From assembly GCF_900496995.4 (NCBI RefSeq), contig NC_044012.1, forward strand, positions 26,177,606-26,241,605: DNA of 64,000 nt, written 5' to 3'. Below are positions 1,795-64,000 of this stretch, one piece after another; position 1 is the first letter of the stretch, and each line of letters opens with the position of its first letter. Position numbers and translations under genes: made by a program. The DNA comes from Aquila chrysaetos chrysaetos (taxonomy: Eukaryota; Chordata; Aves; Accipitriformes; Accipitridae). The notes below the pieces were generated by a model, which was not told the DNA's origin, did no database searches, and saw only the letters and a program-made list of their open reading frames with translations.

Positions 1795-1965
1795 CTTGCA
1801 CACAAAGATGTTGAATGGGTTTCATCACTCTTCATTTCTCACTAAATAATTTTCTGTATCTTATCTAAATGAAACCCATTATTCTTCCCCCCATTTCAAT
1901 CACTCACCGTGATTGCGCCTCAAATTGAAATATTTATTCATTTTCTGGGCGATTCTTTCTCTCTG
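1795..1965. other. AT-rich island, possible conserved non-coding element
   Basis: In otherwise GC-rich DNA this block is strongly AT-rich, with TAAAT, AATTGAAAT and ATTTATTC words and no tandem structure. Such islands in introns of developmental genes are often enhancers, but nothing in the sequence alone proves function. Confidence 0.2.
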
Positions 1966-5092: not shown

Positions 5093-7129
5093 CACAGGCA
5101 TGAAGGGGGAAGTGGGTAGAGCGGTGAGGCAATGCAGAGGAGCGGGATGAAGGCTGCAGCCCCCTCGTTGGGGTCTCCCCTAGGGCAAACATGTCGCCCT
5201 TGGCCTCTGACACCAGGGACATGCAGTGAGCTCCATCCCGTGGGTGCTGCGGGATTGGGGGGGGCACCCAGGTTGTTCCCTCCTCAGGTTGCCACTGAGC
5301 ATCCTTGTAGGCATGGGAGTACTGTGGTGCCGGAGATGGGAATATCCAGGTGCCGCCGCCAGGCTCAGGGGGTGCCGAGGACAAAGCGGGGCTGGTCTGG
5401 GTGCCCAGTTCCCATCGCTCCCCCAGACAGAGCAAGCACCCTCTTAACCCCTTATGGGGGGGGGGTTCCAGACACCCCCTCTCTTGCTTCCTCCCATCCC
5501 TTTTTCTTTTTATTCAAAAGAAACCCCCCAAACCCCCAACTTTTCAAGTGGATTTGATTTAAAATAATAGCTTTAAAGAGGGGATTTCCTGTCCTGCACC
5601 ACTGCCAGCCTTGGTTTGGGGCATGCGGAGCTCCATCATGTGTCCCCAGGGAGGGCTGGGGGTGCTGAGCCCCCCTGGCTGGGGCCGGTGGGCTGCTGGA
5701 GGTGTCTCGGGGGCTCATGATGGGATGGGGGATGCAGGGTGATGGGCTGGGTGCTGCAGGGTGGTGTGTTTGGGTGAAGGCTGGAGCAGGCTCCCTGGGG
5801 CCAAGGAGGAGCCAGGAGAGCGGCAGTGGGGAAACTGAGGCACAAAGCACTTTGCTTTCCCCATCAACATGGGCAACCCCGATGCAGGGCCCCAGCTCTC
5901 CAGCCAGCTCTGCACCCAGCAGCGTTGGCCCAAAAAGCTGGGGAGCAATGAGAAGCAACCCCCTAAAGCTAAATGTTCCCCCCTAAAATGCACTCCCCAC
6001 CCCCCCCCCGCCCCTTGCCTGGGGTCTCAGCCCCCTACTCACTGCGGGGCAGGCATGGGGAGCTGAGGGTTAAGCTCTGGGTTTTCTTTCTCTCCCTCGT
6101 CTTCCAGAGAGCCTTGGCAGGAAATTCCTCAAATTCCAGGCTTGTGGGATCATTGCTGGGCTCTGACCGCAGGAGTGGGGAGCAGAAGCCAGGGCTGCTC
6201 CCTCCAGCTCCAACTTCTCCTGAGCAGGATTTGCAGAGCCCCAGAGGGGAGGGAGGGCTGAGTGTCCCCCCCAAACCCCAGGGTCACCCCACTGGGGTGG
6301 GTTCCCCCATGGTCGGAGATGTGATGCTCATAGGGGCCCCAGCACCCAGCTTGGGGTGACCAAGCTGGTGTGCGGACTGCTGGGCTCAAACTTCCATGGG
6401 ACACCACTTGCCTCCCGCCCCCCACCCCGCCCCAGATGTCCCAAGTGGGGTCCTGAGTCCCTCGGGGACCCAAGAACCCCAAATCCTCACAGGGGGGCCC
6501 TGTGGCTGGTTATGGGATATGACGTGGCAGCTGGGGTTCCCCAGCGTGGGGAGCCTTGCGGTTTGGGTGGCCAGCTCTCGTGGGGCTCCCACCCCACCGG
6601 GTGCCCCGCACTGCCGCCATGCTGTGCCGGGGCAATGACTCCACAGCCAGGCATGGTTGGGGAGGAAGGAGCCAAAATTCCTGTCCATGTTCTCCCTTTG
6701 GGAGCAGAGGGGGAAGGGAGCATCCAGGCTGGGGGGGGGGACACACAACCTGGGGTCCCCACCACATTTGGGGTCCAGCCAGAGGGAGACACCAACTCAC
6801 ACCCAATCCCCAGGGATTTTTTTTTACCTTCAAACCCATTTCCTCCCAGATTTGTTTTTTTATGAAACCCCCTTTGCCAGGGATCGAAACGAGCTGCTGC
6901 CAACTCCATCAGAGATGTTGAATTGAACCTCATCTCGTTACCGATGCTCATGGTGCCGCCTTTACCAGTCAGGACTCAAGCCACCCATGGGGAAACTGAG
7001 GCACGGCATGAGGCGTGCACGCCCCATCGCACATGTGGTCCCCCTGACCCTAATCGGGTGGCTAACGAGGCCGGGGCTCGTCCTCTGACTCATCCTTTTC
7101 CATATGTTGGGACGCGGAGGCCCGTATCG

Positions 7130-7450
7130 GAGCCTCATGCTCTCACAGCTGCTTGTCCCGATTCAATGTGAATGATAATCCCATTATTAGGAGATGTCTC
7201 ATTAAGACATCTGTAATGAGAGCGCTTACCAGCAGCTTGGTGGAAGGATGCCAGCGCTGTTTAAATATTTTTTTTTTTCCCCCTTCATTAATGATTAGGG
7301 ATTTTTATTTCGCCCCACACAGACACACTTTTCCCAAAGAAGAGCTCCCCTCCCTCCCCCCGCCCCACGCGCACACACAAACAAAAGTCTTAATTAGACA
7401 TTGTTCCTAACAGGGATATTACACAAATTAATTAAACTCAAGCCAATAAA
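7130..7450. other. AT-rich, non-repetitive island
   Basis: This is a stretch of low-GC, complex sequence containing GATAATCCCATTATTAGG and an inverted pair of ATTAAGAC/GTAATGAG words, followed by a T-run and ATTAATGATTAGG. The complexity and the homeodomain-like cores make it the best enhancer candidate in the putative first intron. No coding potential was seen. Confidence 0.25.
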
Positions 7451-8093
7451 CAGCACTGCTCCATAATTCTGACAGCCCCAGAAATGAAAAGGAAATAACA
7501 AGGGGAGAGGTTCCACCAGCTCCTTCTGTCTGCTGGGGGGTGGAGGGGGCCCGGATGCCTGGGTTCCCCCACGACAGTTTGCGGGGGGCTCGGGTCAGGG
7601 TCTGCACTGTCGTTGTGGGGCTCTGACCTGGGGACCCACTGGCTCTGGTCCCCACTGGGAGATGCTGGGTGTCCCTGGGGACATCGCATGGGGTAGGATG
7701 CTCAGGGTAGAGGACCACTAGGATGCGGGGGGGGCTGGGTGCAGGGAGGAGTGGGCTGGCCCCGGGAAACCCGGGTGGGAGCAACATCTGCAGCATCCCG
7801 CACATCTGTAGCGTCCCGCACATCTGCAGCCCAGGCCTTTGGCAGCGGTGCAAAGAGCAGTGCTGGGAAGAGGAGGAGGTGGAGGAGGAGGAAGTCTGGG
7901 GTGCAAAGGCAGCCGATCTGTGCCCTCGCCCCTTCTGCAGAGCCCCTGAGCATCAAAGGTGCAGCTCGACCCTGGCTCAGAGGCAGGAGCGTGCAAAGGC
8001 CCCCGGGACCTGTCAGGGACCCCCCCACCCAGGGGTGCTGCGGGGCCAAAGGAGCTCGTTTGGGGGTGGCGCGGTGGTGTCTGTCCTCGCCTG

Positions 8094-29803: not shown

Positions 29804-29867
29804 ATGGGCAGGCACCGTGTCTGCCTTTTTGGGGTCGCCTTGCTGACCGCAGCCGCCGGCTTTGCAG
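29804..29867 (+). pseudogene. Copy A: signal-peptide exon
   Basis: An ATG is followed by RHRVCLFGVALLTAAAGFA, a good signal peptide with a basic start and a hydrophobic core. It ends after one base of the next codon at TTTGCAG before GTGGGT. The phase matches the signal exons of copies B and C. Confidence 0.65.
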
Positions 29868-30063: not shown

Positions 30064-30405
30064 ACACTTAATTACCCCAAGCCTGGGCACAGCCCCAGCA
30101 GGTGAATGGTGTCCTGGGGGTGTCTGTGCTGCTCTCCCCGGCTCTGCCCCCCAACAAGATGGTGAAGGAGATCGAGTGGAGCTTTTCAAATGGTGACGGT
30201 GCCAGCATTCGAGTGGCAGAGTTTGGCCCCGGCAGCTTTGAGCACCCCAACCCCAAGGACCGGTTCAAGGACGAGCTAGAGATGTTCAACAAGACGGCGC
30301 TGAAGATCAGGGCCCTGGAGCGGGGTGACAGCGGGGTCTACGGGGCTCGGATTAAACTGCAGCCGGCGCTGGTGGAGGATCCGTTCTTCAACCTCTTCAT
30401 CTCCG
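30064..30405 (+). pseudogene. Copy A: IgV exon
   Basis: Encodes an IgV-type domain with VNGVLGVSVLLSPALPP, EIEWSF, LEMFNKTALKIRAL and DSGVYGARIKLQP. By eye it differs from the copy B exon at about 21 of 310 bases. TAA at 30069-30071 lies in the expected frame six bases into the exon. The donor after FIS is GTGGTT, weaker than the GTGAGC of B and C. Confidence 0.7.
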
Positions 30406-31072
30406 GTGGTTGCAAAGCGGGGGGATGGGTTTTACAGAAATTCTTTCATTTGGGCACTAAACGCCAGCGTGCGTGGCCCCTCTGCTAGTGCAGTTGGGAT
30501 GTTTCCAGCCCTGGGAACAGATTCGCCCCCATGTCCCTCTTCCCCCCTTGTGTGCAAAGTGACAATTTATAATCACTCGAGCTGAGTTCTCAGTACATTC
30601 TGTGGTTTTCCTGGCTGTGAAAAAGCACGGTCCCTGCCCCCCGCCCAGCCAGGACTCAGCGCCGCTCAGCATCAGCCGTGCACCGGGCTGCTGGCTGCAC
30701 ACCGGGGCCCCGCGTTCCCCCCAGCACGGCACGCAGGCGCTCGCTGCTCCTCGTGCGTCAAACGGCAGCTGCCGAGCCAAGGCTGGTGAGCACGTAGGCA
30801 GCTCCGGCTCTGAGCTTCCTGCTCCTGCACTGTTTCCTGACCTCCTCGCTCCATCATGCTGCAGCCACGCCGGGCTTGAGCTAATTGACTCTGGCAGCTG
30901 GCTGCGGCACAGGGCGTGTGGCTGGTCCCCGCAGCCATGGTGCGTGTTGGGCTGCGTCCTGGCTGTTCCCAGCCTCTGCCCAACCTTTTGGTTGCCCCTG
31001 AGCTCCCCCAATAAAGGAGGGCAGCAGGGAGCATCTGCTTTTGCCAGTGTGTATAATTCCCTTCTGCTGCAG

Positions 31073-31358
31073 AGCCGCTGCCGGACCCTGAAATCCAGAG
31101 CTGGCTGCTTTCAAGGAGCCCCATGTGGTGCCACCTCATGCTGTGGTGCCACATACCCAGCGGGGCTGGGGGCACCATCATCTGGATGAAACCCCGGGGA
31201 GAGCCGGGGGGGTGTCAGGGTGCATCCCCTCTGCAGCAGTGTGCTCCGTGTTGGGGTGCAGCCCAGCTCCCCCAACACCACCCTCACCTGCAGGGTCTGG
31301 CATGACCTGGAGGAGAGGAGCCAATCCATAGACCTGGCCAGCATGTGCTGGAGCGGAG
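31073..31358 (+). pseudogene. Copy A: IgC2 exon with a frameshift
   Basis: The first half reads EPLPDPEIQSWLL, MWCHLMLWC and GGTIIWMK, aligning with ESVPSP, EWCNLTLQC and VNVTWK of copy B. The second half, SSPNTTLTCRVWHDLEERS then MCWSGG, is in another frame. The 286-base length (one more than a multiple of 3) agrees with a net +1 shift. Confidence 0.65.
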
Positions 31359-31507
31359 GTGAGGGCAGCATGGAGGGATCAGAGGGGAGGTGAGGGTCTT
31401 GGGGGGCTCTCCTGGTATTTCCAGGCACCCACAAGCTCCCTGCTGCCCCGCAAAGGGCTGGTTTGGGAGCCGGGCATCCCCTCACTGTGGTCCTTTCCCC
31501 ATCACAG

Positions 31508-31580
31508 GGGACAGCATCAGGCCCGGCTGCTAGACCACGGTGGCTGCAGTGGTGCTCCTGGCAGCCTACGCCACCACGCT
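31508..31580 (+). pseudogene. Copy A: membrane exon with an in-frame stop
   Basis: Acceptor ATCACAG. In the expected phase it reads DSIRPGC and then TAG (31531-31533), followed by TTVAAVVLLAAYATT, a hydrophobic helix. The 3' edge of this exon was not fixed. Confidence 0.5.
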
Positions 31581-32054
31581 GGAGTTTCCCCAAGTCCCTC
31601 CGCAGCACCGTCCCTGAAGAAGAGGGATGTAGTAACGGCTCAGACCTCCATGGCCGCCTTCACTGATGCTCTCCACTTTGCATTGGCGCTGCCTGGCTGC
31701 CCCTTCGGGCCAGCTCCTTGTGTGGCGGGGACATCCCTCGCTGTCACATGCCAAGAACCGTAGCCTGTTTCCATGGTCAGACGGCCCCAGCCACAGCGGC
31801 TCTGGGAGCAGCACGTGCTGACAGGAATGATGACCTTGGGACTGATACCATCTCCTTCCCCTGGGTCCCATGGACACCCTGACATCCCCGTAGAGGACCG
31901 AGTCAGCAGCTTTTCCCGGCGCGATTGTGGGGGAGTGACAGATCCAGCAGCTCTGCTTGGTGTTTCCCGAAGTCCTGAGCCAGCACCTGGTGCTTTCAGC
32001 CCACCCAGCCAGACAAGCCCTGGTGAGATGCTGCCCGTCTCCTCATTCACGCAG

Positions 32055-32098
32055 GTACCACGGGGGATGTCCAGTACAGTGATGCTTCACCTCGCCAG
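32055..32098 (+). pseudogene. Copy A: tail exon with a tyrosine motif
   Basis: Acceptor CACGCAG; in the phase used by copies B and C it reads TTGDVQYSDASPRQ. This aligns with the QYTEIVRRSPPE segment of B. The exon is followed by GGATG rather than GT, so the donor is lost. Confidence 0.5.
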
Positions 32099-32692
32099 GG
32101 ATGTCCCAGCTTGCAGAACCCCTCAGTGCCAGCTCACAGGCAGGAGAATTTGGCAGGAGGAAGCCCCTGCCTTGCACAAGAGCTGGTGACATCCCCAGCA
32201 AGCGCCTGCCGCAGACCCCTGCCTCCAGATGGATGGCCTTCATGCCATCCAGCTGCATTCTTCTTCTTCTCCTTGGCTCTCAGAGGACCAGCTGGACTTC
32301 CCCGTTAGCTGGAATTTTCAACTCAGCGATTTTTATTTCCCCTCTGCCCTTGAGAGATGTGGGAGGAACTGGCAGAGTGGGCAGCATGTCCAGCCCCTGC
32401 TTGGCTGCCTGCTCCTCTCAGGGGTCCCCAACGGGCAGTTTTGGGACATTCACCGGCCACAAACAGCCCGTGTCCCTCTCTGCACCAGCCTCAGTTTCCC
32501 CAGTGCTTTGAGGACCCTCTTTGAAAGTGCCCCAGGAGAAGCGCTGGAGTTAATAGTCCCCTGGGTGCAGGTTAATGACTTGCTCATAGGTGGGGAGCAG
32601 TGAACACTGTCCCATCTGCTCTCTCCTGCAGCCCTGCTGCAGAGGCTGCTTTCCCCCTCCCTGTTTTCCATTTTGAGTTGCTGGAGGTTTTA

Positions 32693-32698
32693 AATAAA
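32693..32698 (+). terminator. Poly(A) signal of SLAM-type copy A
   Basis: AATAAA inside TTTTAAATAAAAAATAAGC, followed by a T/G-rich CTTTCTGTGCTGC. It lies after the last recognised copy A exon and before the copy B signal exon. Confidence 0.5.
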
Positions 32699-33473
32699 AA
32701 ATAAGCTTTCTGTGCTGCTAATGCAAAGTGCTTCCTTCCAGCCACGGCCCCCGCAGCAGCTCAGGGCTCTGACATTGTGGCTGGAGGGCTTGGTGGGTGG
32801 CTTCTGCAGCCCCCTGAGAGGGAGAGGTGTGTGAGGGACTGGGGGGAGCCCATGGGGACGATTTGGTGGGTCCACGGCTGCCTTGGCATTACCACCAGAC
32901 CCTGCCAAGGCATCTATTTCCCAGGTGTGCCCCCTGTGATTCAGGCAAGACCTCCCATCTGCTCAGGGACATCCCCTCCCATGCTGTTTTCTGCACCCAA
33001 GGGGGCTCAGGCACCCCCATGCTCCCCATGGGAGTGGAACTGGGGGTGCTCCCACCACCCAGCTCCAGGACGCTCCTGCTGCCTGGGTTTCCCCAGGGAA
33101 GTGCTCTTGATATTGGGAAGCCCATTTCAATGAGCCCTCGGTCATCCCCAGGGCCAGTGGGGGAGACCTGGTAGGGCTGTGCTGGGCATCGCCAGCGTTA
33201 ATTCAGGCACTGAACCAGGCTGATGAGGGATGCTGCAGGGTCGGGGGTCACCAGCAGCCCCCACCATGCTCGCTTAGCATCCTCGGTGGCATGGGTCCTG
33301 CACGCTTCCCCCCCTTGACCACCTCATCATTTATGGCCAGCTAATTAATAAGCTGGCTGTGCCCTGCTATGCACGGCTTCCTACGACTTGCAGGGAGAGG
33401 CAGCTTTGCTCCTCCCCATCTCTCCTGCTGCTGACTCTGCCCACTGAGCCACACGAAGAGTCGAGGAGGAGAA

Positions 33474-33546
33474 ATGGAGGGGGAATTGGCCAGGAGCAAA
33501 GCCCAGCTACCCTCGCTGCTCCTGGCGCTGCTCAGCCTCGGGCCAG
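33474..33546 (+). CDS. Copy B: signal-peptide exon
   Basis: The ATG lies in GAGAAATGG; the exon encodes MEGELARSKAQLPSLLLALL and SLGP, then one base of the next codon before GTGAGT. Phase 1 matches the IgV exon 2.9 kb downstream. No better upstream start was seen. Confidence 0.8.
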
Positions 33547-36500
33547 GTGAGTGGGTGGGCGGCCGCTGCTGAGCCCTCGTCCCTCGGGAGCCTTGTGGCA
33601 GGGGGCTGGTGCAGGGTGGGCTACGGGCAGGGATGCCGACCCCATCCTGCCTTCTCCCTGCCTGCTGCTGGCTAATTGCAGCCCACCCCAACGCTGCCCC
33701 TCCATCCCTCTACACTCCCAGCTGGGCGCGAGATGATTTCTGGAATGCTGGTTTAGCGGTCCAGCCTTAATGAGAGGTTTCATAATGAGGCGGCAGCCAA
33801 GCGGCCACGGACCCCCTGACTCCATCCCCCCGTGAGGGTCCCCTCACCCCTAACGTGGCTTCTGCCTGGTGCTGCTGTCGCCCCACGGAGCCCTTTAACC
33901 CCCCGGGACCGTGTCAGATCTGACTGTGAAGCAGCTCCTTACGTAAAGCAGGAGCGAGGAATCCCCTTAATTCCCAGCGTGCTAATCCACACTTTTAATA
34001 ATTCCCATAAAACCTCCAATTCCTACAGAAAGCATCTAGTAGTACAGGCAGATTAGCGGCAGGGGGGTTATCTTCCTAATGATTAATTGGCTTCACGAGC
34101 AAGACAGGCTGTCGCCAGCCATTGGGCAGGAGGGCTGTGGTACAAGGTGCCAGCTCTGCCACACTGATGACAAATATCTGACCCAGCTAGATGGAAAATA
34201 GACTGTTAATGATGCTTTGGAGTTTTCCAGCTGCTTTCTTTGATCAAAATTATTTGATATCAGAGTGTAGTGGGGTGGGGGGTGTGTGTGATGAGAAAGA
34301 GCAAAATCTGGGCTGGCGGTGAATAAATACTGGGCTAAAATCAGCCCTGTAGCTGTTTTTTTGAGGGTCTGATGGAGACCCGAGTTGGACTAATCTGGGT
34401 GCCAAATGCATCATGATGCATCGAGCATCAACGTGTTTGTCCCCCTCCCTCGCCCACTGGATCCTGCCTTGGAGTTGTGGCTATGGAGAGTCGGGTTCCC
34501 GGAATCCTGTGGTAAACAGGATGAACCGGGAGGATGCCGGGGAGGCAAGGCGGCGGCTGGGCTCGGCAGAGGCCTGGAACCAGCCGGCTTTTCCCAGCCG
34601 TCATTTCCTCTAACCGCTCATACAATAGGGTGGGGGTGGCCAGCGGGGACCCCCCCACAGAGCCACAGCTGGCGGATGTACTGTGGGAGGGTGGAAAACG
34701 CCGGGAGGCGTGCAGGGAGGATGCCCATGCCGTGCCCATGCCGTTGCCTGCACGGTGCCCTAGGTGAGCAACCCCTGGTTTAAACGCGGTGGGCAGCGCC
34801 ACTGGGGAAGCACGGCTGACGGACAGATGGATGGCGGGCAGACGGGGCACACATGCACCTCCAGCCTTCGCATGGCTGTGGCGAGGGATGGGGGAAGAGC
34901 ATCTGCCCAACGTCCTCCATAAGGAACCTGATGAGCTTCTGCAGGACCCCCCCAGCTCCTTTTTCCTACTCAGGGTGCTGGCTGTCCCCTTCTGTCCCCC
35001 CCCAGACCCCAAACCTGGTATCTCAGGACTCCCAGCTTCCCCCTCACTATCCCACTGATCCCCCCATGCCACCCCACTCCCACGCACAGGCTCAGCATCC
35101 TCCCTTAAAGCTCAGCGAGAGCCACGCGTCGATGGTGCCCACGGCCGGGGCAGCTTCACAGGGCCCCGAAAACTTCACAGGCACCCAGGAAAGCGGTAGA
35201 AATCTGATCGGGCTTATGATTCGCCTGGAAGAACAGGAATCGAGCCTGGGATAAGCAGGATCAGCGCAACAAAAGCTCCAGTGACATGGAGCACTTCTTA
35301 TAAAGCAAAGCGAAGAGGCAGCTTGTAATGTGGGGCTGCTGGAGGGTTTTATACAAAGTAAACACTCGAATGTCTGTGTTTAATCTGCTTTAATATACAG
35401 GCACATCTGTTTCTGCCTCCTGTGGGCGGGGGGAGAGGAGGGGAGGCGGCAGGGGGCTGCACCGAGGCGATGCAGGACCCATCAACCCATTGTGGGGACC
35501 CATCCTAGCCAGGACAGGGGGAAAGCCGCTTGCCCCGACCTCGCCATTCCAACAGCTGGGCAACCCGGTCCCCATGTGGGACAAGGAGAGGGAGAAGGGG
35601 AGGCTGTTATCCCAGTGGCAGAGAAGCGTGGGGGGCTGCGGGGGCCGGGGCCGGCAGAGGAGACAGCTTGTAGGTAGGCGGGAGCTGCCAGGAGCGAGGG
35701 AGGTGGTGCCGAGCAGCTCCTGGCATGATTTTGCAGAGAGCTGTCGATGCTGCCAAAAAAAACCCCATGGTGGCAGCTCAGATGGAGGGGCTGAAACTTG
35801 CCCCTTGCTGAAACTTGCTGGGGAGCTGCCTGGGGTAGAGACAGCAAACTCCATCCCTGCAGGAATCACCCTGGTCCTGCATCTCGGAGGTGGCTCCATC
35901 CCTTCTGGGTCCAGCATCTCCACCATGCAGGGACCCCAGCAACCATCCCAGCTCTCCCCCATCACCTTAACCCTTGTTGATCTTTTGTAGGCATCTTGGC
36001 CGAGGTGCGTTTTAAGGCGGACAATGAGGTTTTGCAGATGCTGGCTGGGAACTCCTCCCAGACTCTGTTGGAGCGTTGCTCTGGTGAGAGCCCGGCTGCA
36101 GCCCCGGGGATGGCACCGTTCAGATGGGGCACCCGCATCTGAACCAGTAGATGCTTTATTTTTTTTTCGGCAACCAGTCTCCAAGCCCTGCATCCTTCCC
36201 TCCCTGCCAGAGTAGGAAGTGGCTCCGTCGGGATATGGGGTCTTTTGGGTGGGGACATCCCCGTCCCCAGCCCAGAAAGGGACCAGCCGGCGGAGAGACC
36301 AGGTGGCTGCGTCAGGGTGGGGAGATGCTGCTTCTTCCGCCTGAAAAGGGACACGTCCCCAGGGGTCCTTCTGTCCCTGTCTTTTCCCTGCTGTCCCCGT
36401 CTTGTCCCCACGCACCCGATGACTTTCTGCCTTGTCCGTAGAGCTCCTCTTCGGCCAAGCCAGGGCACAGCCCCAGCAGGTGAATGGTGTCCTGGGGGGG

Positions 36501-38775
36501 ACCGTGCTGCTCTCCCCGGCTCTGCCCCCCAACAAGACAGTGAAGGAGATCGAGTGGAGCTTTTCAGCTGGTGCTGGTGCCACCATTCAAGTGGCAGAGT
36601 TTGGCCCCGGCGGCTTTGAGCGCCCCGACCCCAAGGACCGGTTCAAGGACCGGCTGGAGATGTTCAACAAGACGGCGCTGAAGATCAGGGCCCTGGAGCG
36701 GGACGACAGCGGGGTCTACGGGGCTCGGATTAAACTGCAGCCGGCGCTGGTGGAGGATCAGTTCTTCAACCTCTCCATCTATGGTGAGCAGCTGCATGCT
36801 GGGGTTTTGGCAGAGGTGCTGGGGGCAAACCTAGAAAGCCCTGAGTGCGAGCACTAACACATTTACAGGTGGGGAAACTGAGGCACGGAGCAATGTTGGG
36901 GTTTACCAGGGTTAGGTTAGACCCTTGCCTTTGCACCCCAGTGCCTGCAGCCCCTCAAGCTCTGCAAAAGGCCAAATCCTGCCACCACAGGGGCCCCCGG
37001 GCTGGCTGTGCCATGCCCGGCTGGGGACAAGCATGATGGTGGGGATGAGCAGCGTGGAGAAATCCCTGCTGTCCCATGCTGATCCGTCCCCTCCATCGGA
37101 TGCAGAGTCGGTGCCAAGCCCCCGGACTCGCAGCCAGCTCCTGGCCAGCACCCTGGAGTGGTGCAACCTGACATTGCAGTGCCAGGGCGCCGGCAAAGGC
37201 GCCGTCAATGTCACCTGGAAGAAGGACAACGTCATCTGGGACCTGACCTCTGACCGCCACCAGCTCTCCCCGGATGGGACCACCCTACGGTTGGCCCTAC
37301 CACCCACTGCCGCCAATGTCACCTACGCCTGCACCGTCAGCAACCCTGCTGACCAGAAAGTCGTCCTCTTTGACCTGCAAGCCATCTGCCAAAGCGGAGG
37401 TGAGACCCTTGCCCCGGGGATGCACAGGTGTCCATCATCAGCTGGCTGGCTCGGCACGGGGAGGCGGGGGGGCTCAGCCCTTGATGGGGGGTTGGCACCG
37501 CTCTCTCTACCCACCCAGGGGGACAGACATCCTTCTCAAAGTCAGGGTACATCGTCCTGACCCTCATCCTGCTGGCGGTGAGCTTGGGGGGAGCCTTCTG
37601 GTGCTGGCGGATGAATAGTGAGAAGGCAGCAGACCCAGGCAAGTGAAGCCGCCCCCCTCCCCGAGAGCTGGCATGGCTTTGAGGGGCCTGGGGGAGTGTG
37701 TGTGGGGGTTCCTGGCCCCCCCTCATGCCCTGCTCCCCTGCAGCTGCCACCCCCACGGTGCCCGCCGAGGAGAGCCCCTCTGACCCCCAGTACACCGAGA
37801 TCGTGCGCCGGAGCCCCCCGGAAGGTAATGACCAGGTGAGGCCCCCGGGGGGCTGGGGGCTGCCGCCCAGGGAGGGCTGTGCTGGGGGGTCCCAGCCATG
37901 CTGAGGGGGTCCCAGCCAAACTGGGGTCCCAGCCATGCTGGGGTCCTGACAACTCCAGGAGTCCCAGTCAAGCCGGGAGTCATGGCAACACTGGGGGTCC
38001 CAGCCACATTGGGGGTCTTGGCTGACTGGGAGTCCTGGCCACGCTGGGGTCTTAACAACACTGGGGGTCCCAGCCACATTGGGGGTCTTGGCTGACTGGG
38101 AGTCCTGGCCACGCTGGGGTCTTAACAACACTGGGGGCCCCAGCCATGCCAGGGGGTCCTGGCCAAACTGGGGTCCCAGCCACACTGGGCTTATGACAAC
38201 ACTGGGGGTCCCAGCCACAGTTGAGTCCTGTTCAAACTGGGGGTCCTGCCAAACCGGGGGTCCTGGCCACACCAGGGTCTTGGCTACACCAGGGGTCCCA
38301 GTCACGCTGAGGTCATGGCATCATGGGGGCCCCAGCCACACTGGGGGTCCCAGTCACACTGGAGTCATGGCCACACTGGGGGTCATGGCCACACTGGGGG
38401 TCCCAGCCACACTGGGGGTCCCAGCAATGCCAGGGGTCCCATCAACACTGGGGGTCCCAGCCACACCGGCGTCCCAGCCACACCAGGGACCTGGTCACAC
38501 TGGGGGTCCTGACCACAGCAGTGTCCTGGCCCCACGGGACACCCATGGGTGCAGGCTGAACTCCGTGCCAGGGCAGAGCAACCGGCAGGCCCTCCCCAGG
38601 GCTGGGGAGGGGATTGGGGCTGGCGGGTCCCTCAGCAGCCCCCCAATTTCTGCCGCAGGGCCTCAGTCACCCCGAAAATAACCAGGAGCAGAGCCCGCCA
38701 CAGAAAGCACTGGTCACCACCGTCTACGAGCAGATCCGCCGGGCGCCAGAGGACACAGCCGAAGAAGTGACATAG
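33474..38775 (+). CDS. SLAM-family (CD2/CD150-type) receptor, copy B, intact
   Basis: Exons 33474-33546, 36442-36783, 37106-37399, 37519-37638, 37744-37835 and 38659-38775 join in phase to give 345 residues. Order: signal peptide (1 to about 25), IgV lacking the usual disulfide (about 31-138), IgC2 with four cysteines in the SLAM pattern (139-236), membrane helix (about 247-266) and a tail. The tail has QYTEIV at Tyr293 (ITIM/ITSM-like, Pro at -2) and TVYEQI at Tyr330, a good ITSM (TxYxxI). In SLAM receptors the ITSM binds SAP or EAT-2 after phosphorylation, and the IgV domain mediates self-binding between leukocytes. I cannot assign a particular SLAMF member. Intron 4 appears to use a GC donor. 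The poly(A) signal is at 39784. Confidence 0.85.
33547..36441 (+). other. Copy B intron 1
   Basis: A 2.9 kb intron between the signal and IgV exons. It contains a low-GC block at about 33940-34350 with TAATGATTAATTGGC and GATCAAAATTATTTGATATC strings that could be regulatory. No extra exon was recognised. Confidence 0.5.
36442..36783 (+). CDS. Copy B: IgV exon
   Basis: Acceptor GTCCGTAG; encodes ELLFGQARAQPQQVNGVLGG, EIEWSFSAGAGATIQVAEF, LEMFNKTALKIRALERDD and SGVYGARIKLQP. There are three N-glycosylation sequons (NKT twice, NLS). DDSGVYG gives the DxGxY core of an Ig fold. It ends SIY plus one base before GTGAGC. Confidence 0.88.
37106..37399 (+). CDS. Copy B: IgC2 exon
   Basis: Acceptor GATGCAG; encodes ESVPSPRTRSQLLASTLEWC, NLTLQCQG, VNVTWKKDNVIWDLTSD, NVTYACTVSNPAD and LQAICQSG. 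The two cysteine pairs (EWC with AIC, LQC with YAC) are the SLAM/CD2 C2 pattern. It ends after one base of a Gly codon before GTGAGA. Confidence 0.87.
37519..37638 (+). CDS. Copy B: membrane exon, GC donor
   Basis: Acceptor CACCCAG; encodes GQTSFSKSG, then YIVLTLILLAVSLGGAFWCW and RMNSEKAADP. I place the end at CCAG before GCAAGT because copy C ends its membrane exon at the matching codon (KKAAEGG) with a normal GT. An upstream GT (AATA then GTGAGA, at 37618) would also keep the frame and shorten the tail by 7 residues. Confidence 0.75.
37744..37835 (+). CDS. Copy B: first tail exon
   Basis: Acceptor CCTGCAG; encodes AATPTVPAEESPSDPQYTEI, then VRRSPPEGNDQ. Copy C has the matching PFYAKIQRRTPPPETHEW. 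A second donor, GAAG then GTAATG, lies 12 bases upstream of the one chosen. Confidence 0.8.
37885..38525 (+). repeat. 18-base minisatellite in copy B intron 5
   Basis: About 35 copies of an 18-base unit, CTGGGGGTCCCAGCCACA, with many variants. Within it a 70-base block is duplicated in tandem without a mismatch (37991-38060 and 38061-38130). It fills most of the 0.82 kb intron between the two tail exons. Confidence 0.92.
38659..38775 (+). CDS. Copy B: last coding exon with ITSM
   Basis: Acceptor GCCGCAG; encodes GLSHPENNQEQSPPQKALV, then TTVYEQIRRAPEDTAEEVT and TAG. TVYEQI fits the immunoreceptor tyrosine-based switch motif that binds SAP-type SH2 domains. Confidence 0.83.
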   Translation, partial: GLSHPENNQEQSPPQKALVTTVYEQIRRAPEDTAEEVT

Positions 38776-39190
38776 GCCCTCAGGTGCGGGGGGGCTGCCC
38801 CCAAAAAAAGACTGATGCCGGGTTGCGGGGGGTGTCTGTATGTGGGGACCCCCTGAACCTCCATCACTGCACACTGCGGAGGCTGAAGGGGCTCCTCTCT
38901 CCCACAGGCACCCGCAGAGCCGGAGCATCGGGATTTCCCGGAAGGGCTGTAAAGTGCGTTGTGTGCCAAATCCGAACCCTTCAGCCCCCCTTTTGGCTCC
39001 AGGGATGGGAGACACCATCTCGGGGCCATAACCGGCCGGATACTTTCCCCCCCACCTCCGGTTTCTCTCCAATCTCCTTGTCTGATGCCCTTCGAGACTG
39101 TTTTGGGGAGCAGGATCCCGGACCAAGGCAGAGACAAGTGGCAGCGAAGATGGGGGACCCTCTGTGGTCCCCAGTTACCCCGGGATGGGG

Positions 39191-39210
39191 ACACACACAC
39201 ACACACACAC
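39191..39210 (+). repeat. (AC)10 microsatellite
   Basis: Ten perfect AC dinucleotides in the copy B 3' untranslated region. Confidence 0.95.
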
Positions 39211-39783
39211 CGGGGTTCACCTCCCACGTGCCGCCACTGCCGGGCTTGGCCGGGGCTGGGGGCATTGGGGAGGGCAGGGGCACATCCTGGTGCCAGCCAG
39301 GCCATGCTGCTTCAGCACGGCACTGCACGTCCAGGATGAGACCCCCTTGGGCACACTGACAACCCCCAACCCATCCCACTCCCACCCATTCCCAGGCCTC
39401 CCCCCCACCTCCAGCTCCCCCCCAGGGCCTCACAGGGACCCTCTGTCGGGAGATGCCCACGCAGGGTGGACCTGCCCACCCGCTTCGCTGCTGCCACAGA
39501 GACACGGGGAGGGGGGACACTGGGGTGTCCCCCCAGCCCCATCCCATGCAGCTTCCACTGGAGTGGAGCTGGGTGGCATCTCCAGGGCCATGGAGGGATG
39601 CAGAAGGGACTGTCGCCCAAGCAGACCCACTGAGAAGCACCCCCCCCTTCCCTACTCCCCGAGCTGTTGCCTATGTAGCCGGTATTGTGACGATGGAGGG
39701 GGTGTCCCACTGCCTGTGTGTCCAGCATCTACTGTCACGGGGCCCCTCGCTCGGCCAGACCTCCCACCGTTGTAAAAACAGCA

Positions 39784-39789
39784 AATAAA
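39784..39789 (+). terminator. Poly(A) signal of SLAM-type copy B
   Basis: AATAAA in GCAAATAAATGTTGGTGAG, with a T/G-rich element directly after it. It is the first good signal after the copy B stop codon. Confidence 0.75.
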
Positions 39790-39827
39790 TGTTGGTGAGA
39801 TCACAGGGGAGAGCTGGCAGAGCGGGC

Positions 39828-39945
39828 ACGCGTGGGCATGCGTGGGCATGCAAGTACATGTGTGTGCATGCATGTGCGTGTGTGTGCATGCATATACCTG
39901 TGTGTGCATGCATATACGTGTGCACACGTACACCTCTTTGTGCAT
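39828..39945 (+). repeat. GTGTGCATGCATATAC short tandem repeat
   Basis: Imperfect copies of a 16-22 base unit made of GTGTGTGCATGCATATAC and related strings, alternating purine and pyrimidine throughout. It lies just downstream of the copy B poly(A) site. Confidence 0.75.
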
Positions 39946-40957
39946 CCGCACGTGGACCCGTTGCAGTAAAAACATCCCGGGGCCGTGCAAACTGCCCAGG
40001 TTTGGGGCTGCACCCCAAGAAACCCCAGCCCGGCCCCCTGTGTGCAGGGGAGGGACACAGCTGCCTCTCTCTTCCCTTTTTGGAAAGGCAGCAGCGGCAT
40101 GACCTCTGCTTGTGGTCTGTGTGCTGCCTGGGGCCAGCCCGGCCCCCCACATCCCTCCCTGAAACCCAGGGGGCTCTCGCAGCCTGACCCTCCATCACAG
40201 CTGGGAGTCCCAAGGGGTGACAACCGCCATGGGGACAGGGCAGGGCTGTCCCCAGAGACCTGCTCCTATTTTACCTGTCTTCTGCTGCTGCTGTGGGGGG
40301 TTTGGTGCAGCAAAAGCTTCTCAAGCAAAGACTTTGCTGCTGGTGGTGAGAAACTGGCCAAGCCCCCAGCAAGAAGTGCAGCATCAGGGCAGGGGAACAG
40401 GACATCCTGGGTGATGGGGATGGAACATCCTGGACACTGGGAACCCAACCAGGACATTTCCAAGCCAACAGGGACCCTCTCCCCTCAATTTAAAGCCAGG
40501 GAAACCCTCCTTGGGAAGAGCAGCCACCCCAGCTTGGCCCCATGGTGGGAACAAGGACTCATCCTTATCCCAGGTGTGCTCAGCTCCATACAGGCAGCCA
40601 GCCCAGCTGGTATTATTTACCCAACAGCAGGCAGGAGAAGATAGCATCCGGCTCCTTCCTTTATTTATTACACCTGGTTCCCAGGGGGAAATCAAGGGCT
40701 GGGCAGTGGGGATCAGCTTGGGGGTTTTGGGGACCAGCAAAAAACCCTTGGTGCAGCTGGAGGGAGAGATCCCACTGACCCCAACCCATGGCTGGGCTGT
40801 GCTGGCTGTGGCTTGGTGATGTCCCCATGGTGTCCTTGTGTCACCACTCCTCTGGGAAGGTGCGTTACCATACGTGGGTAGATTTGCATGTTCACTCCCT
40901 CCAAGCTGGTACATCGAGCTGAGATCAAGGCTTTGAGCTCGCAGCAGTGTTGGAGCA

Positions 40958-41027
40958 ATGGGGATGTCGCTCGGCTGCCCATGTCCCCGTGTCCCCTGGC
41001 TGCTGGTGCTGCTCCTCGTGGTGGCAG
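40958..41027 (+). CDS. Copy C: signal-peptide exon
   Basis: The ATG in GAGCAATGG starts MGMSLGCPCPRVPWLLVLLL and VVA, a strong signal peptide. It ends after one base of a Gly codon before GTAGGA, giving the same phase as copies A and B. Confidence 0.75.
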
Positions 41028-42825
41028 GTAGGAGTGAGGGGAGGGCAGCAACTGTGCTGGGAGGGGACCATGGCTGTTCCGATGCTTGTGACCCCCATTT
41101 TTTAGGGAGCGGGTGGCGGTGGGAGAGAGCTGGGGGGCGTGGCTTTGGGTCCCAGTTGCAAAATGAACCCTAGCCCTGGGAGTTCAGAAAATACATGAAA
41201 TATTAAGGGCAAGAACAGGAATTTCCCTCTGCGAAGGAGCCGGGAATGATGTATCAGGGCACTGGTGGTTCCTTGCCAGGGTGAGCTGGGGCAAGCTGGG
41301 GCTGCTTGCTTGCAGCTGATGGGGGGAAATGATGTGGGGCATTGCTCAGCCTCCCCTCCTCACTTTATTGCTGGCATAAATCAATCCTCGAGAGGTTTAC
41401 GGACCCCAGGGCCAGCACCTGGGGCTGTTTCCTCCTTCTTCTGCTCTGTGGCTGCTGCTTGGACACCCTCGGCCCAGCCAACCCGCCACAGGAAAAAGGA
41501 AAATTAATTTTGGCGAGTTACGGAGGAAGGCAAGGAGGGGCAGTCTCCCCTCTTTGTTTGCCTGTGTGTTTCCGTGAGGAGGAAGAGGGACGCCAAAGGG
41601 TGGCTTGGCCCTGGGCTGCTCCGGCTGTGCTGCAGCATTACTGCTACATACCCACCTCTTCGGGGTTTGGGGGCGGGGGGGGGGGCGGCTGTATCCTGCA
41701 GCTGTCGGGTGCACCTGGAAAACGCTCGATGGGTGCAATGAGTGGGCAGGGGTTGGGTGCTGCCCAGCATTTAACCACCACCTAGCTGGGTGCCCCCAGG
41801 GACGGCTGGGACACGGCAGTGCCATGGTCTTGCTCCCCACCACCGCACACAGCCGCTGAACTGAGCGCAGCATCCCGCCAGCACCTGACGTGGTGGTACC
41901 CAAATGAATCCCCCCACTCCGCTCCCAGGGGAGCGCATGCCCTGAACTGGGGGGTGGGGGTGTCCACGGCCATGCTCGCATGATGGTGTGATGAACCCCC
42001 CAACGCTGCGCTGGTGCGTGCATTTTGCAGCTATGCTGGCTGTGTGGTGCCCTTCACCTCGCCTTCCTCTCTGAAAACCAAAGCAGTGGAGGGAGACGTC
42101 AAAGCCGGCCCCAAAGCACGCAAGAGGTGAGTAACTGGCAAGTTGGGGTGCAGAATGAGCCCTGCGATGTGTGGACATGGTTGGCTGGCTGTCTTTCCCC
42201 TGTCCGGGGGTGGCTGCATCGACATCTCACAGCATTCAACGTCTTGGAGTTGCATCGCCCAGCGTGGGTAGCTCTGCTGCTGGGAGCATCTCACTGTCAC
42301 CCCAGGAATAGAGGGGCTGCGCCCCCCCAAAAGCTCAGCGCTGAGCTGTCCCACAGCCCTGGACGGAGGGTCCCTGTCCCCACTGGGACCCATGGGCACG
42401 TTTCCCAAAGGTTTAACCTGAAATGCGCCCTGTTTTGAGCCCTGCTTGGGTGCAGGCATGGTGGGGAGAGCATCCCTGTCCTCTCCGTGAAGCCCTGGCT
42501 GGTCCCTATCATGGGGATGACCCATGCACAGTGTGGGGTGACACTGGGACAACACAAGATGATACTGGGAAGGCACCATGAGCGCCCAGCATCCCCCCTG
42601 GCCCCGGGGGATGCCCAGCCCCGTGCGTGGTACCCAGCCACCAGGGATGCTGGCAGGAGAGGTGATGGGTGTAGGATTAAATGAATCATCTCAGGCAGGC
42701 ACTGCACTCTCATGACTAAGGCACCAGTGGGCAGGTGCCCACAGGTACCTCAGGTGGGGGCTGTGGGCAGGAACAGGGGGTCTGCTGGGGGTCCCCATCC
42801 TCCACACTATCCCTGTCCTGGCCAG

Positions 42826-43156
42826 GTGCTGCGGCTGCCCAGCCCTGGCACGTGAACGGCGTCCTGGGAGGGGTCTATGCTGCTCTCCCCGGCTCTGCCC
42901 CCCAACAAGACAGTGAAGGAGATCGAGTGGAACTTTTCAGTCGGTGCCGGTGCCACCATTCAAGTGGAAGAGTTTGGCCCCAGTGCCTTCAAGCGCCCTG
43001 ACCCCAAGGACCGGTTCAAGGACCGGCTGGAGATGTTCAACAAGACAGCGCTGAAGATCGGGGCCCTGGAGTGGGACAACAGTGGGGTCTACGGGGCTTG
43101 GATTAAACTGCACCCAGCAGTGGTGGAGAATCAGTCCTTCAACCTCTCCGTCTACA
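42826..43156 (+). pseudogene. Copy C: IgV exon with a one-base insertion
   Basis: Acceptor CTGGCCAG. The first part reads GAAAAQPWHVNGVLGG. After an extra base the IgV domain continues in another frame as LLSPALPPNKTVKEIEWNFS, then LEMFNKTALKIGALEWDN and SGVYGAWIKLHP. It ends SVY plus one base before GTGAGC. Confidence 0.75.
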
Positions 43157-43474
43157 GTGAGCGGCTGCAAAGCAGCAGGTGGTAGAGTTGGGTTTACAGC
43201 CCCAGCGGGACCAGCCTGCGGGAGAGGCAATAAAACCCTTCTACGCCCGGAGTTATCAGCGCCCAGGAAAGGGGAAGAGAAATTGCTCTTGCTGCTGAGC
43301 ATCTGTCATGGGAATTTTCCTGGGTTTATGACTAACCACAATCCACCCCCACCTGCACTTCCCCTTCCCGCACCCCCTTGCTGCCCCTCCGGCCCAGCTT
43401 GCTCTCCCTGGGGGATCAAGGGTGTCCCTGGGCAGGCTGGGTTCCATGACAGGTTTTGTTTACACCTTAAACAG

Positions 43475-43756
43475 GGCCGGTGCCAGTGCCGGGGATCCAG
43501 CACCGGCTGCTCCCCCTCACCACCCAAGGGTTCAATGTCACCCTGCGGTGCTGGGTGCCGGCCAGCAGCAATGCTGAAGCCATCTGGCAGCTCAGTAGCT
43601 CCCCCAGGACGCCGTGGGGACAGCTCTGTGAAGACAGCCAGACGCTGTGCCTGGCCGTGCCTGCCAGCACCTTCAGCTCCAGCTACACCTGCGTGGCCCA
43701 AAATCCCATCCAGGAGAAGAACACCTCCATCCGCCTGGACGCCCTGTGCCAGCAGG
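43475..43756 (+). CDS. Copy C: IgC2 exon
   Basis: Acceptor TAAACAG; encodes PVPVPGIQHRLLPLTTQGF, NVTLRCWVPASSNAEAIWQL, ASTFSSSYTCVAQNP and TSIRLDALCQQ. The frame is clean and the cysteines resemble the SLAM C2 pattern, with an extra CEDSQTLC pair. Similarity to copy B is low, far below that of the IgV exons. Confidence 0.72.
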
Positions 43757-45404: not shown

Positions 45405-45765
45405 TAGGGCCGAATCCTGCATGACTGGATCCCTACACAGGTGGATCCCAATGCAGTCATACACCTGCACAGCTGGATACTCATACAGTCACACTCCTGC
45501 ACAGCTGGATCCCAGTAAAGTAGGATGTCTTCACAGCTGGATCCCCATGCAGCGGCATCCCTGCACAACTGGATCCCAGCAAGGTGGGACCCCTGCACAG
45601 CTGGGTCCCCATATACCAAGACCCCTGCACAGCTGGGTCCCAGCAAGGTGGGACCCCTGCACAGCTGGATCCCCGCACAGCTGGATCCCTGTAAAGTGGG
45701 ACCCCTGCACAGCTGGACCCCCGTATACCAGGACCTCTGCACAGCTGGATGCCGGCCCAGCCGGG
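45405..45765 (+). repeat. Minisatellite of CAGCTGGATCC units before the ETV3 promoter
   Basis: About eleven copies of a 25-35 base unit containing CCTGCACAGCTGGATCCC and a variable AGCAAGGTGGGAC or GTATACCAAGA joint. About nine copies hold the palindrome CAGCTG, an E-box. The array ends about 100 bases before the ETV3 CpG-island promoter. Confidence 0.88.
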
Positions 45766-61200: not shown

Positions 61201-64000
61201 TCATGCTAGGCTGGATAACACGGCACTGGGCAGGGGGGGGGGGGAAATCTTTCCGGGACTTTCCAAAGCCTTTTTGGGGAGGGATGCCTGGCTCAGCGGG
61301 GTGGGGGGATGCCTGTGTGCAGCTGGGCACGTGGGAGGTCCCCCCCCCCCACTCCCTAAGGGTAGCGAGCCTGCAGACCCACTGGGAATTTCCACACACC
61401 CTCTCCACCCCATGCTCACAAGTCCCCCGGGTCTCTTCTTGGCATCCCCCCACACCCCCCCAAATTTATCCTGGGGGGGGGGGGGTCTCTGCTCCCCACA
61501 GGGATCTGGTCAGGAGCACCTCCCAGGTCGGCAGGAGCCTGCTGCTGTTGGAACCACCCAAATTCACAGGTGCAATAAAACCCCAAAGCTCTTTCATCCA
61601 GTCCCAGCCTCCTCTTAATGGCAATTAAAACCACCTCCAGCCCCATTCCTGCCTGGGGTGCTGTTAATCTTCTCTTGGCACCAGAAAGGCACCTCTGAGA
61701 GGCAGAGAGCACTGCTCCCGCCTGGCCAGGAGGAGGGATGAGCCCTGTCATCCCAGCTCTGTGAAGCCCCAGGGCCTCATCCTGTCCTGCATGTGGGTTT
61801 TGCATGATGTCAGCTGCAGCCAAAAAGGGGCCTGGAGGCAGCCGTGGTCTGGGGGGCTTCTGCTGGGGGGTGGCAGGCGGGCGCTGGATGGGCCAGGGCA
61901 CACAAAAACGTGAGCAAAATGGGTTTATTACCGGGAGTCTGTTGGTGCAATTGCTATCGATCGGCAGCTGTCACCTTACATCCCCGCTAATGGGACCTGA
62001 AGAGGCTTTGAGATCGGGAGCAGGGCGTGCGCCTATGTGCCAGCCTCATCCTGCTCCCGGCATGGTCCCCCAGCACCCCTTGCCCTGGCTCCTGCCTCCT
62101 TTCTCCCTTTTCCTTTCCTCCGCTTGCTCTTTTACTATTTTCTGCTGATTCTGCCTTCCCTCCTCTCTCCCCATCTCTCGTTCACCACTTCCCCTTGCTC
62201 TTCATCTCCCCCTCTCGCCCCATCCCTTGTCCTCATCTCAGATGAGCAGTCCCCCACCCTCAGATGAGCCCCCCCTGCTTGTCCCCTCCCTCCTCCTTCC
62301 CTTTCCATCCCCTTTCCCCTTTTTTCTTTTATTTCCCCCCCTCGCTCCACAGGTTTGGCCGCTCCACTCTGCCCTGACCCCTCGGCTCAGCCACCAACGT
62401 CCATGGCCGTTCCTTGGCTTGGCTCCCTGCTCCCGACCCACCTCTCACTTTTCCCCCCTTCCCACCCGACCTCATCTTATTATAATTTTAATTTGCGAGG
62501 TCTCTCAGCAGGGTGGGGGGGATTAACCCATGAGAAATGACTTATTGATCCCAGCTCATGCTTTGCGGCTCCATCCCCAGGGAGATGGGGATGTCTTGGT
62601 GGTTTATCTACCACGAGCTGCTGGGACTGGACCTGGAGCATCCCCTGGCTCTGCACCAGTACAATGGGCAGGGGGAAGCTGTGCACGGGGTACTCTGGGT
62701 ATCAGGACATGGGTCTGGCACCAGCGCTGCTGCCTCCCCATCCCGCTCACTCCCGGCACGCTCTAGACATTCAAGTCTGAACAGATAGCGAGCTGCCCAG
62801 GCCCTTCCTCCCAATTACAAGGAGGGAAAGCAAAGGAGCGGGAACCCGCCCGGCGCTTTGGTAGGCAAAGCGCTCGGTGCCTGAGGCCCTGGCACCACGC
62901 CGTCGTGGCTGATGGTGTCGCAATGGGTGGGCAGCCGCGAGCTGGCTACACCCTGCGGGATTCGCAGCGAGCTCCTGGATCGGCAAGAAACGTTCACCGG
63001 CTCCACCCGGCCTCTGCGCTGCCAGGGCGCGTCTGGCTGGCTCCGGCTGGGCTCGGGCCGCGGGCAGGAGTGTTGCCGACAGAGCTGTGCTGGCTGGGAG
63101 CGGGCAAAGCTTGGCCTGAGCACCAGCGAGGTGCCGATGGGCACATCTCGGTGAGCGTGGCCATGCGAGGCGGGGCGGGGGGGGGTCATGCTTCCCACTG
63201 TGGTGTGGGCTTGCATCCCAGTGGGAACCAGCCCAGGGGGACGGATGCCGGGTTGGGATGGGGTCTCTTGGCACCGACCAAGCTGCACAGCGGTCAGGAG
63301 ATGGATGCGGCACAGAGAGATGGGAGATTTTCACTCCAGCCCTGATGCCTGGGCGCTTTGGACCCAGACACCTCAATTTTGCAGCATCCCTGTGATTCCC
63401 AAAGGGATGAGCACCCACCAGGGATCCCCACAGCCATCCCCCGCACCCGTCTCACATGCCCCTTGCTCTCCCACCCCCGTCCATCCGTCCCGTCCCCCCC
63501 AGCCTGTATCGCTTTCCACCATGTTAGCCTTGCTTGATTTAACCAGCAAACAGTCCCAGGATTTAATTCCCCAGCACCAGGCAGAGCGGGTGCACAGGAA
63601 GGAACGCGGCTCCCCACTGTTGCTGCTGGCTTCCTGGGATGGTTGAGCCGAGCGGGGCCCATGGCAGATGGAGGGGGCATCTGGCTCTGTGTCCCAGCCC
63701 CTCCTCGCCCAGCCTTCCCCTTCGGGTCCCAGTTTTCCCCATGGCCGAATCCCTCCTGGCTCAGATGTGACCCTGTGTTGCTGGAGGAGATAAACTGGGG
63801 AGGGTCGCGTCACCTTTCTGGCTGTCTGGCATCACCCGCTCCTACAGGTCACAGGGATGGGCAGTGCAGGCAGGGATGGGCTACTGGCCCTTTTGGTTGC
63901 CCTTGGCTTCATGTGTGGTTCTGGCAGGGTTTTCCGGAGGCCTCCAGGGTGGGTGAAACCCTGTCCTGGCCAAAACATCCCTGCTGGATCCCTGCTTCTC
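58276..64000. other. No gene recognised after ETV3
   Basis: Mixed unique sequence. It contains an AT-rich block at about 59195-59330 with TAATTAAAC and CATTAATTCC cores, an A-run at about 59466-59487, pyrimidine-rich stretches near 62060-62460 and a CpG-rich piece at 62820-63165. In mammals ETV3L and ARHGEF11 lie beyond ETV3, but no ETS, PDZ or RhoGEF exon was found on either strand here. Confidence 0.5.
62820..63165. promoter_or_regulatory. CpG-rich block, possible promoter or exon
   Basis: CpG density is raised compared with both sides, and a donor-like ACATCTCG then GTGAGC sits at its right edge (GT near 63151). The open frame within it has no family resemblance. It could be a promoter-proximal exon of the next gene. 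Confidence 0.2.

Follow-up and report, generated by a model that had tools for sequence, protein, structure and literature searches.

The stretch of DNA analyzed here, a window of 64,000 nucleotides from Aquila chrysaetos chrysaetos, corresponds to 26.18-26.24 Mb of a 45.2 Mb contig (NC_044012.1; the genome is 1.23 Gb) and contains no N. Between a KIRREL-type gene on the left and an ETV3-type gene on the right lie three tandem genes with two immunoglobulin (Ig) domains each, which will be referred to as A, B, and C and which appear from their sequence to be SLAM/CD2-type receptor genes with leader, IgV, and C2 exons, B having in addition a transmembrane segment and a tail with tyrosine motifs (Table 1). 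Gene B has six coding exons and encodes 345 residues, and its tail carries QYTEIV and the immunoreceptor tyrosine-based switch motif (ITSM) TVYEQI; the exon model was built from splice consensus and open frames, without transcripts. Gene B reads as intact and seems to be the sole functional-looking copy today. Judged from their frames and splice sites, genes A and C are broken relics in this assembly, in agreement with an earlier note on this stretch. In gene A the IgV exon carries a TAA stop codon at its start and ends at a weak donor, and the C2 exon is out of frame; the weakness of the donor comes from four bases just past the end of the exon that are present in C and missing from A. The defect of gene C is a +1 frameshift close to the start of its IgV exon.

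Comparison of the three gene regions by blastn resulted in one strong match per pair, and in each case this match is the IgV exon. The exons of A and B align without gaps over 332 bp with 24 mismatches (92.8% identity), which is close to the 21 differences in 310 bases given in the earlier note. The exons of B and C align over 333 columns with 36 mismatches and one gap (88.9%), and those of A and C align over 337 columns (83.7%), so that the description of C as close to both of the other copies holds for B and is weaker for A. The remaining matches among the three genes, pieces of the C2 exons included, are weak (57-80% identity, E-values of 1e-4 or worse); an identical stretch at 33300-33450 is the overlap of two extracts. 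The C2 domains share 24% (A-B), 25% (A-C), and 32% (B-C) of their residues in a multiple alignment, and 33 of 88 residues are shared by B and C in a pairwise alignment. The earlier estimate of about a third is correct for B-C and generous for the other two pairs. These values confirm the central observation of the note, that the IgV exons of the three genes are nearly the same while their C2 exons are barely alike.

The likeness had been thought to start inside the exon and to stop near its donor, and the limits of the matching tracts bear this out. The A-B tract starts at 30077, which is 13 bp inside the exon of A (from 30064) and 10 bp ahead of the GGCACAGCC motif, and the tracts shared with C leave out the first 23 bp of the exons of A and B and the first 11 bp of the exon of C. 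At the other end the blastn matches extend past the exon by 3 bp (A-B), 13 bp (B-C), and 13-17 bp (A-C). Each gene has an acceptor and a leader of its own, which are unrelated among A, B, and C, and the tract does not include the acceptor side. In the upstream flank the first 25 bp from the anchor are 84% identical in A-B and 52-56% identical in the pairs with C, after which identity is near the shuffled mean; in the downstream flank the first 25-bp step is raised in all three pairs (60-68%). Among the later 25-bp steps of the flanks, 63 of 66 are at or below the highest of 50 shuffles. When A was compared with B at a fixed offset of 6378 bp, the 29 segments of 200 bp outside the IgV exon were 20-34% identical, and the 99th percentile of the background is 34.5. 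This fixed-offset comparison covers A-B, as B-C is one base out of register in most of the IgV exon owing to an insertion in C. In the genome, a search with the IgV exon of A as DNA gave three places among the best candidates scored, all of which are the copies themselves, and a search with the IgV protein of B gave four matches among the best candidates scored, the three copies and one at 30% identity (E-value of 0.11). No fourth close IgV copy was found among the best candidates scored in these DNA and protein searches.

Table 1. Exons of genes A, B, and C and the tracts shared by their IgV exons (window positions).
Feature	Position	Strand	Remarks
Gene A putative leader exon (signal peptide)	29804..29867	+	Open frame from ATG; phase-1 donor GTGGGT at 29868
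Gene A IgV exon	30064..30405	+	TAA at start once joined to leader; weak donor GTGGTT
Gene A homogenised tract	30077..30418	+	Shared with B at 30077-30408 (92.8%) and with C at 30087-30418
Gene A decayed C2 exon	31073..31358	+	Weak match to C2 exons of B and C; frame lost within (translation)
Gene B leader exon	33474..33546	+	Exon model
Gene B intact IgV exon	36442..36783	+	No cysteines
Gene B homogenised tract	36455..36796	+	36455-36786 with A; 36465-36796 with C
Gene B C2 exon	37106..37399	+	Four cysteines
Gene B transmembrane exon	37519..37638	+	Followed by probable GC-AG intron (donor GCAAGT at 37639)
Gene B cytoplasmic exon	37744..37835	+	Carries DPQYTEIV
Gene B last coding exon	38659..38775	+	ITSM TVYEQI and stop
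Gene C leader exon	40958..41027	+	Exon model
Gene C IgV exon	42826..43156	+	+1 frameshift near start
Gene C homogenised tract	42837..43173	+	End at 43169 in the match to B and at 43173 in the match to A
Gene C C2 exon	43475..43756	+	Open frame

The synonymous divergence (dS) of the two exons was determined by the Nei-Gojobori method (NG86) with 95% bootstrap intervals; the C2 exon of gene A was left out as its frame is lost, and three codons of gene C around the frameshift were masked. The IgV dS is 0.078 (0.02-0.15) for A-B, 0.193 (0.09-0.33) for B-C, and 0.207 (0.10-0.35) for A-C, and the C2 dS for B-C is 1.04 (0.64-2.05). Equal synonymous divergence of the IgV and C2 exons, which the earlier note had named as one of two results that would refute gene conversion, was not observed: the B-C values are 0.193 and 1.039. 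Together with the flanking introns, which are unalignable, this difference supports the proposal that conversion was confined to the IgV exon. The gap in dS is not due to composition, since the guanine-cytosine content at third positions is similar in the IgV (0.79-0.80) and C2 (0.80-0.86) exons. The note had also suggested a gene-conversion test, and in a best-fragment permutation of the combined leader, IgV, and C2 alignments the observed fragment was reached in 0 of 20,000 permutations for each of the three pairs, so the IgV match is not a matter of chance.

As a control we used four SLAM-like genes from the part of the contig upstream of the window (two at L022, one at L023, and one of the two copies at L024), their exons being delimited from six-frame translations. 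Their C2 domains are more alike than their IgV domains in all six pairs (IgV 16-23%, C2 23-37%), and the reverse is true of A, B, and C, in which the IgV is more alike than the C2 in all three pairs. The C2 exons of A, B, and C are about as distant from each other (24-32%) as they are from the four neighbors (19-31%), which indicates that the three loci are old. A search of the genome with the C2 domain of B gave 14 matches at E-values up to 10, consisting of B itself, C (2e-4), one neighbor (0.02), and 11 others at 0.28 or higher; the C2 exon of gene A is absent from these 14 matches. Besides A, B, and C, the contig has several further SLAM-like genes in the region before the window (G000:C9 26138001-26165300), mostly on the minus strand. 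At L024 (G000:C9:26158001-26168000) SLAM-like V and C2 exons occur twice in inverted orientation, at 1800-2800 (minus strand) and 6585-7556 (plus strand). Identity between the two copies is 99.0% over 302 bp and 99.7% over 672 bp, and about 27 bp of the V region are missing from the second copy. This pair may stem from a recent duplication, a conversion, or an assembly effect.

The three IgV exons have not changed at the same pace. In a 330-column alignment 38 sites are private to C, 18 to A, and 4 to B, and a relative-rate test of A against B resulted in a chi-square of 8.9 (P = 0.003). Private changes were polarized with C as the outgroup in the 98 codons that are comparable in the three genes. 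Gene A has 17 such changes, 14 nonsynonymous and 3 synonymous, and gene B has 2, both synonymous; about 68% nonsynonymous changes (about 68:30) would be expected without constraint. Gene C has 25, of which 15 are nonsynonymous, although here the branch of C and the stem of A and B are mixed without a further outgroup. The one A site and the two B sites that are left fall in the three masked codons: the A site is a Gly/Val difference to B, and the two B sites share one codon, which encodes Thr in B and Ser in the A copy. When the 98 codons and the masked codons are combined, replacement over the whole domain of B amounts to at most about one residue. On these counts the silent clocks of A and B are similar (3 versus 2), and A appears to drift freely while B appears to be held, which is the pattern of a dead copy and a living copy after an exchange. 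This pattern speaks against A or C having handed variants to B since that exchange, and the suggestion that the broken copies act as donors for B was not supported. The neutral rate in birds is near 2e-9 per site and year, and this rate would date the last exchange between A and B to roughly 20 million years ago and the exchange with C to about 50 million years ago, with wide error. The contrast lies within one locus: from the same exchange, the broken A would have drifted while the working B kept its protein nearly unchanged.

The explanation that we favor, with a probability of roughly 0.8, is that non-allelic gene conversion overwrote the IgV exon, and no other part, of three old tandem paralogues, A, B, and C. 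The conversion tract would span about 0.33 kb, with its left end 11-23 bp within the exon and its right end 3-17 bp beyond it, and there would have been at least two episodes, an earlier one with C as a participant (dS of about 0.2) and a more recent one between A and B (dS of about 0.08). Conversion would have been limited to the one segment that was still homologous, and the tract probably stopped at the edges of the exon because the introns had already lost homology. A common ligand-binding domain may have been tolerated or favored while the copies worked. Several points weigh against this explanation. If the IgV exons had once been as diverged as the C2 exons are, ordinary conversion could hardly have started, so the start of the exchange needs either continuous exchange since the split of the genes or another type of transfer. 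The C2 dS comes from a single pair, B-C, and the extremes of the bootstrap overlap, the highest IgV value for B-C being 0.57 and the lowest C2 value 0.41 in 5,000 resamples each. Three of the 66 later flank steps, each of them 68% identical, lie above the maximum of 50 shuffles. The types of sites in the tract are not significantly clustered (27 runs versus 31.2 expected, P = 0.13), so no internal mosaic is apparent, and the evidence is from one assembly of one bird. It is conceivable, and we put it forward tentatively, that the IgV exons have been exchanged continuously since the split, such that the introns, leaders, C2 exons, and tails lost nearly all of their likeness while an island of 0.33 kb, bounded by the edges of its exon, stayed a shared pool, perhaps with the broken copies included. 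Exchange would then have shrunk to the exon as the introns diverged; the alternative is that a rarer kind of transfer came first.

A rival explanation is exon shuffling, in which non-homologous recombination, and not gene conversion between homologous exons, placed a copy of the IgV exon into older genes as an addition or a replacement. The C2 exons are so distant that the original IgV exons may also have been too unlike for conversion, which favors shuffling. However, the tract starts within the exon and does not include an acceptor, leaders and acceptors differ from gene to gene, and the window, where tblastn with the IgV of B gave only the three exons below an E-value of 1, showed no sign of a displaced IgV exon. 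An inserted exon that brought its own splice sites is less likely for these reasons, and we consider shuffling an unlikely source of the likeness. A recent tandem duplication of the whole gene, followed by very fast change of the C2 exons, introns, and tails, is much less probable still and was rejected. The IgV copies (starting at 30077, 36455, and 42828) are indeed almost equally spaced, 6378 and 6373 bp from start to start, but the leader and C2 spacings differ and the equal spacing is probably a coincidence. Recent duplication is contradicted by the C2 dS of about 1 (B-C) and by introns that cannot be aligned, A-B identity outside the IgV exon being at background at the 6378 bp offset.

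Strong selection on the IgV sequence, at the level of the protein or of the nucleotides, could in principle have kept three old exons alike without exchange, and the lack of private nonsynonymous changes in B is what such selection would leave. The synonymous sites are alike too, however, and A is not conserved (14:3 versus about 68:30 expected) yet is 92.8% like B. Selection alone was rejected, as the A branch makes it very improbable. An assembly artefact, in which IgV reads of one gene were used repeatedly, was also considered, but the copies differ by 7-16%, far above sequencing error, there is no N in the window, and each copy has distinct flanks. The differences between the copies and their separate flanks led us to reject this explanation as well, and the chance that it applies is very small. 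A role of the broken copies as somatic templates, in the manner of the pseudo-V segments of bird antibodies, is equally improbable.

The assignment to the SLAM/CD2 family is based on domain structure and motifs. A V-set domain without the canonical pair of cysteines, a C2 domain with four cysteines, and the ITSM TxYxx[VI] are typical of SLAM receptors. The V-set domain of gene B scored 29.8 bits (the Pfam cut-off is 26), and the V-set is above the cut-off in A too. The first cysteine of B is at residue 158 of 345, and its V-set therefore lacks the canonical pair. The cysteines of the C2 domain are at residues 158, 164, 214, and 233 (Ig_3, 30.8 bits; cut-off 30), and the ITSM is at residue 328. 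The best match among solved structures is SLAMF6 (2if7), a weak match at an E-value of 0.00096 that was the best among the 23 distinct chain sequences listed. The Pfam domain Receptor_2B4 scored 13 bits in gene A, under the cut-off of 21, and is unlisted for gene B; a genome search with this domain gave six matches, none of which is inside the window. An AlphaFold2 model of the IgV domain of B, made from three sequences, was poor (mean predicted local distance difference test score of 51) and was not used. Like SLAMF6, CD244, and their relatives, B has a cysteine-free IgV, a four-cysteine C2, a transmembrane segment, and an ITSM, but its sequence likeness to them is weak and no one-to-one mammalian partner can be named. 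The CCC palmitoylation motif described for the SLAM-like chicken gene chB6 (PMC11882424) was not found in the tail of gene B, although short PxxP-type strings do occur there. Viral contigs scanned with the IgV domain of B gave 10 pattern matches and no confirmed relatives.

The gene that we take to be of the KIRREL type ends near 22.8 kb of the window, and an exon near 48.6 kb presumably belongs to the ETV3-type gene, both labels being taken from the products. The last intron of gene B holds a minisatellite (37904-38535) whose repeat unit is about 17-18 bp long, and another, with a 32/16 bp unit, lies downstream of gene C (45429-45764). Two short C2-like peptide matches at 63728-63999 are at chance level (E-values of 1.4 and 1.9); they could belong to an Fc-receptor-like gene past the ETV3-type gene.

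Gene conversion that is centered on a ligand-binding domain has been described in other Ig receptors. In primates, SIGLEC11/SIGLEC16 and Siglec-5/Siglec-14 have undergone repeated gene conversion around the exon that encodes the ligand-binding domain, the nonfunctional copy SIGLEC16P takes part in conversion, and the converted exons are under relaxed constraint (PMC5701461, PMC6288428). The primate Siglecs have a functional partner with opposite signaling and a nonfunctional allele that is the donor, whereas here B has two broken partners and the divergence is older. Two intact receptors with opposite signaling, as in paired activating and inhibitory receptors, were not found here, as only B reads intact. 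In CEACAM1-like genes of ruminants and other mammals, conversion of the IgV-like N exon keeps the paralogues alike, in the exons more than in the introns (PMC7042247, PMC2832619); leader and intron stretches of the mammalian CEACAMs are still alignable and converted too, unlike those of A, B, and C. In both the Siglec and the CEACAM cases a common ligand domain keeps paired receptors matched (PMC5701461, PMC6288428, PMC7042247, PMC2832619). Gene conversion in immune receptors has also been reported in the TLR1 family, including bird genes (PMC3125219), although these are Toll-like receptors and A, B, and C are Ig receptors. Conversion limited to the IgV exon among SLAM genes was not found among the titles and abstract openings listed, in a body of literature that leaves out most subscription journals. 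Conversion of the ligand domain alone, which is known from mammalian Siglecs and CEACAMs, would thus be extended to SLAM-type receptors in a bird, and trees of such genes that are based on the IgV domain can mislead on both orthology and ages.

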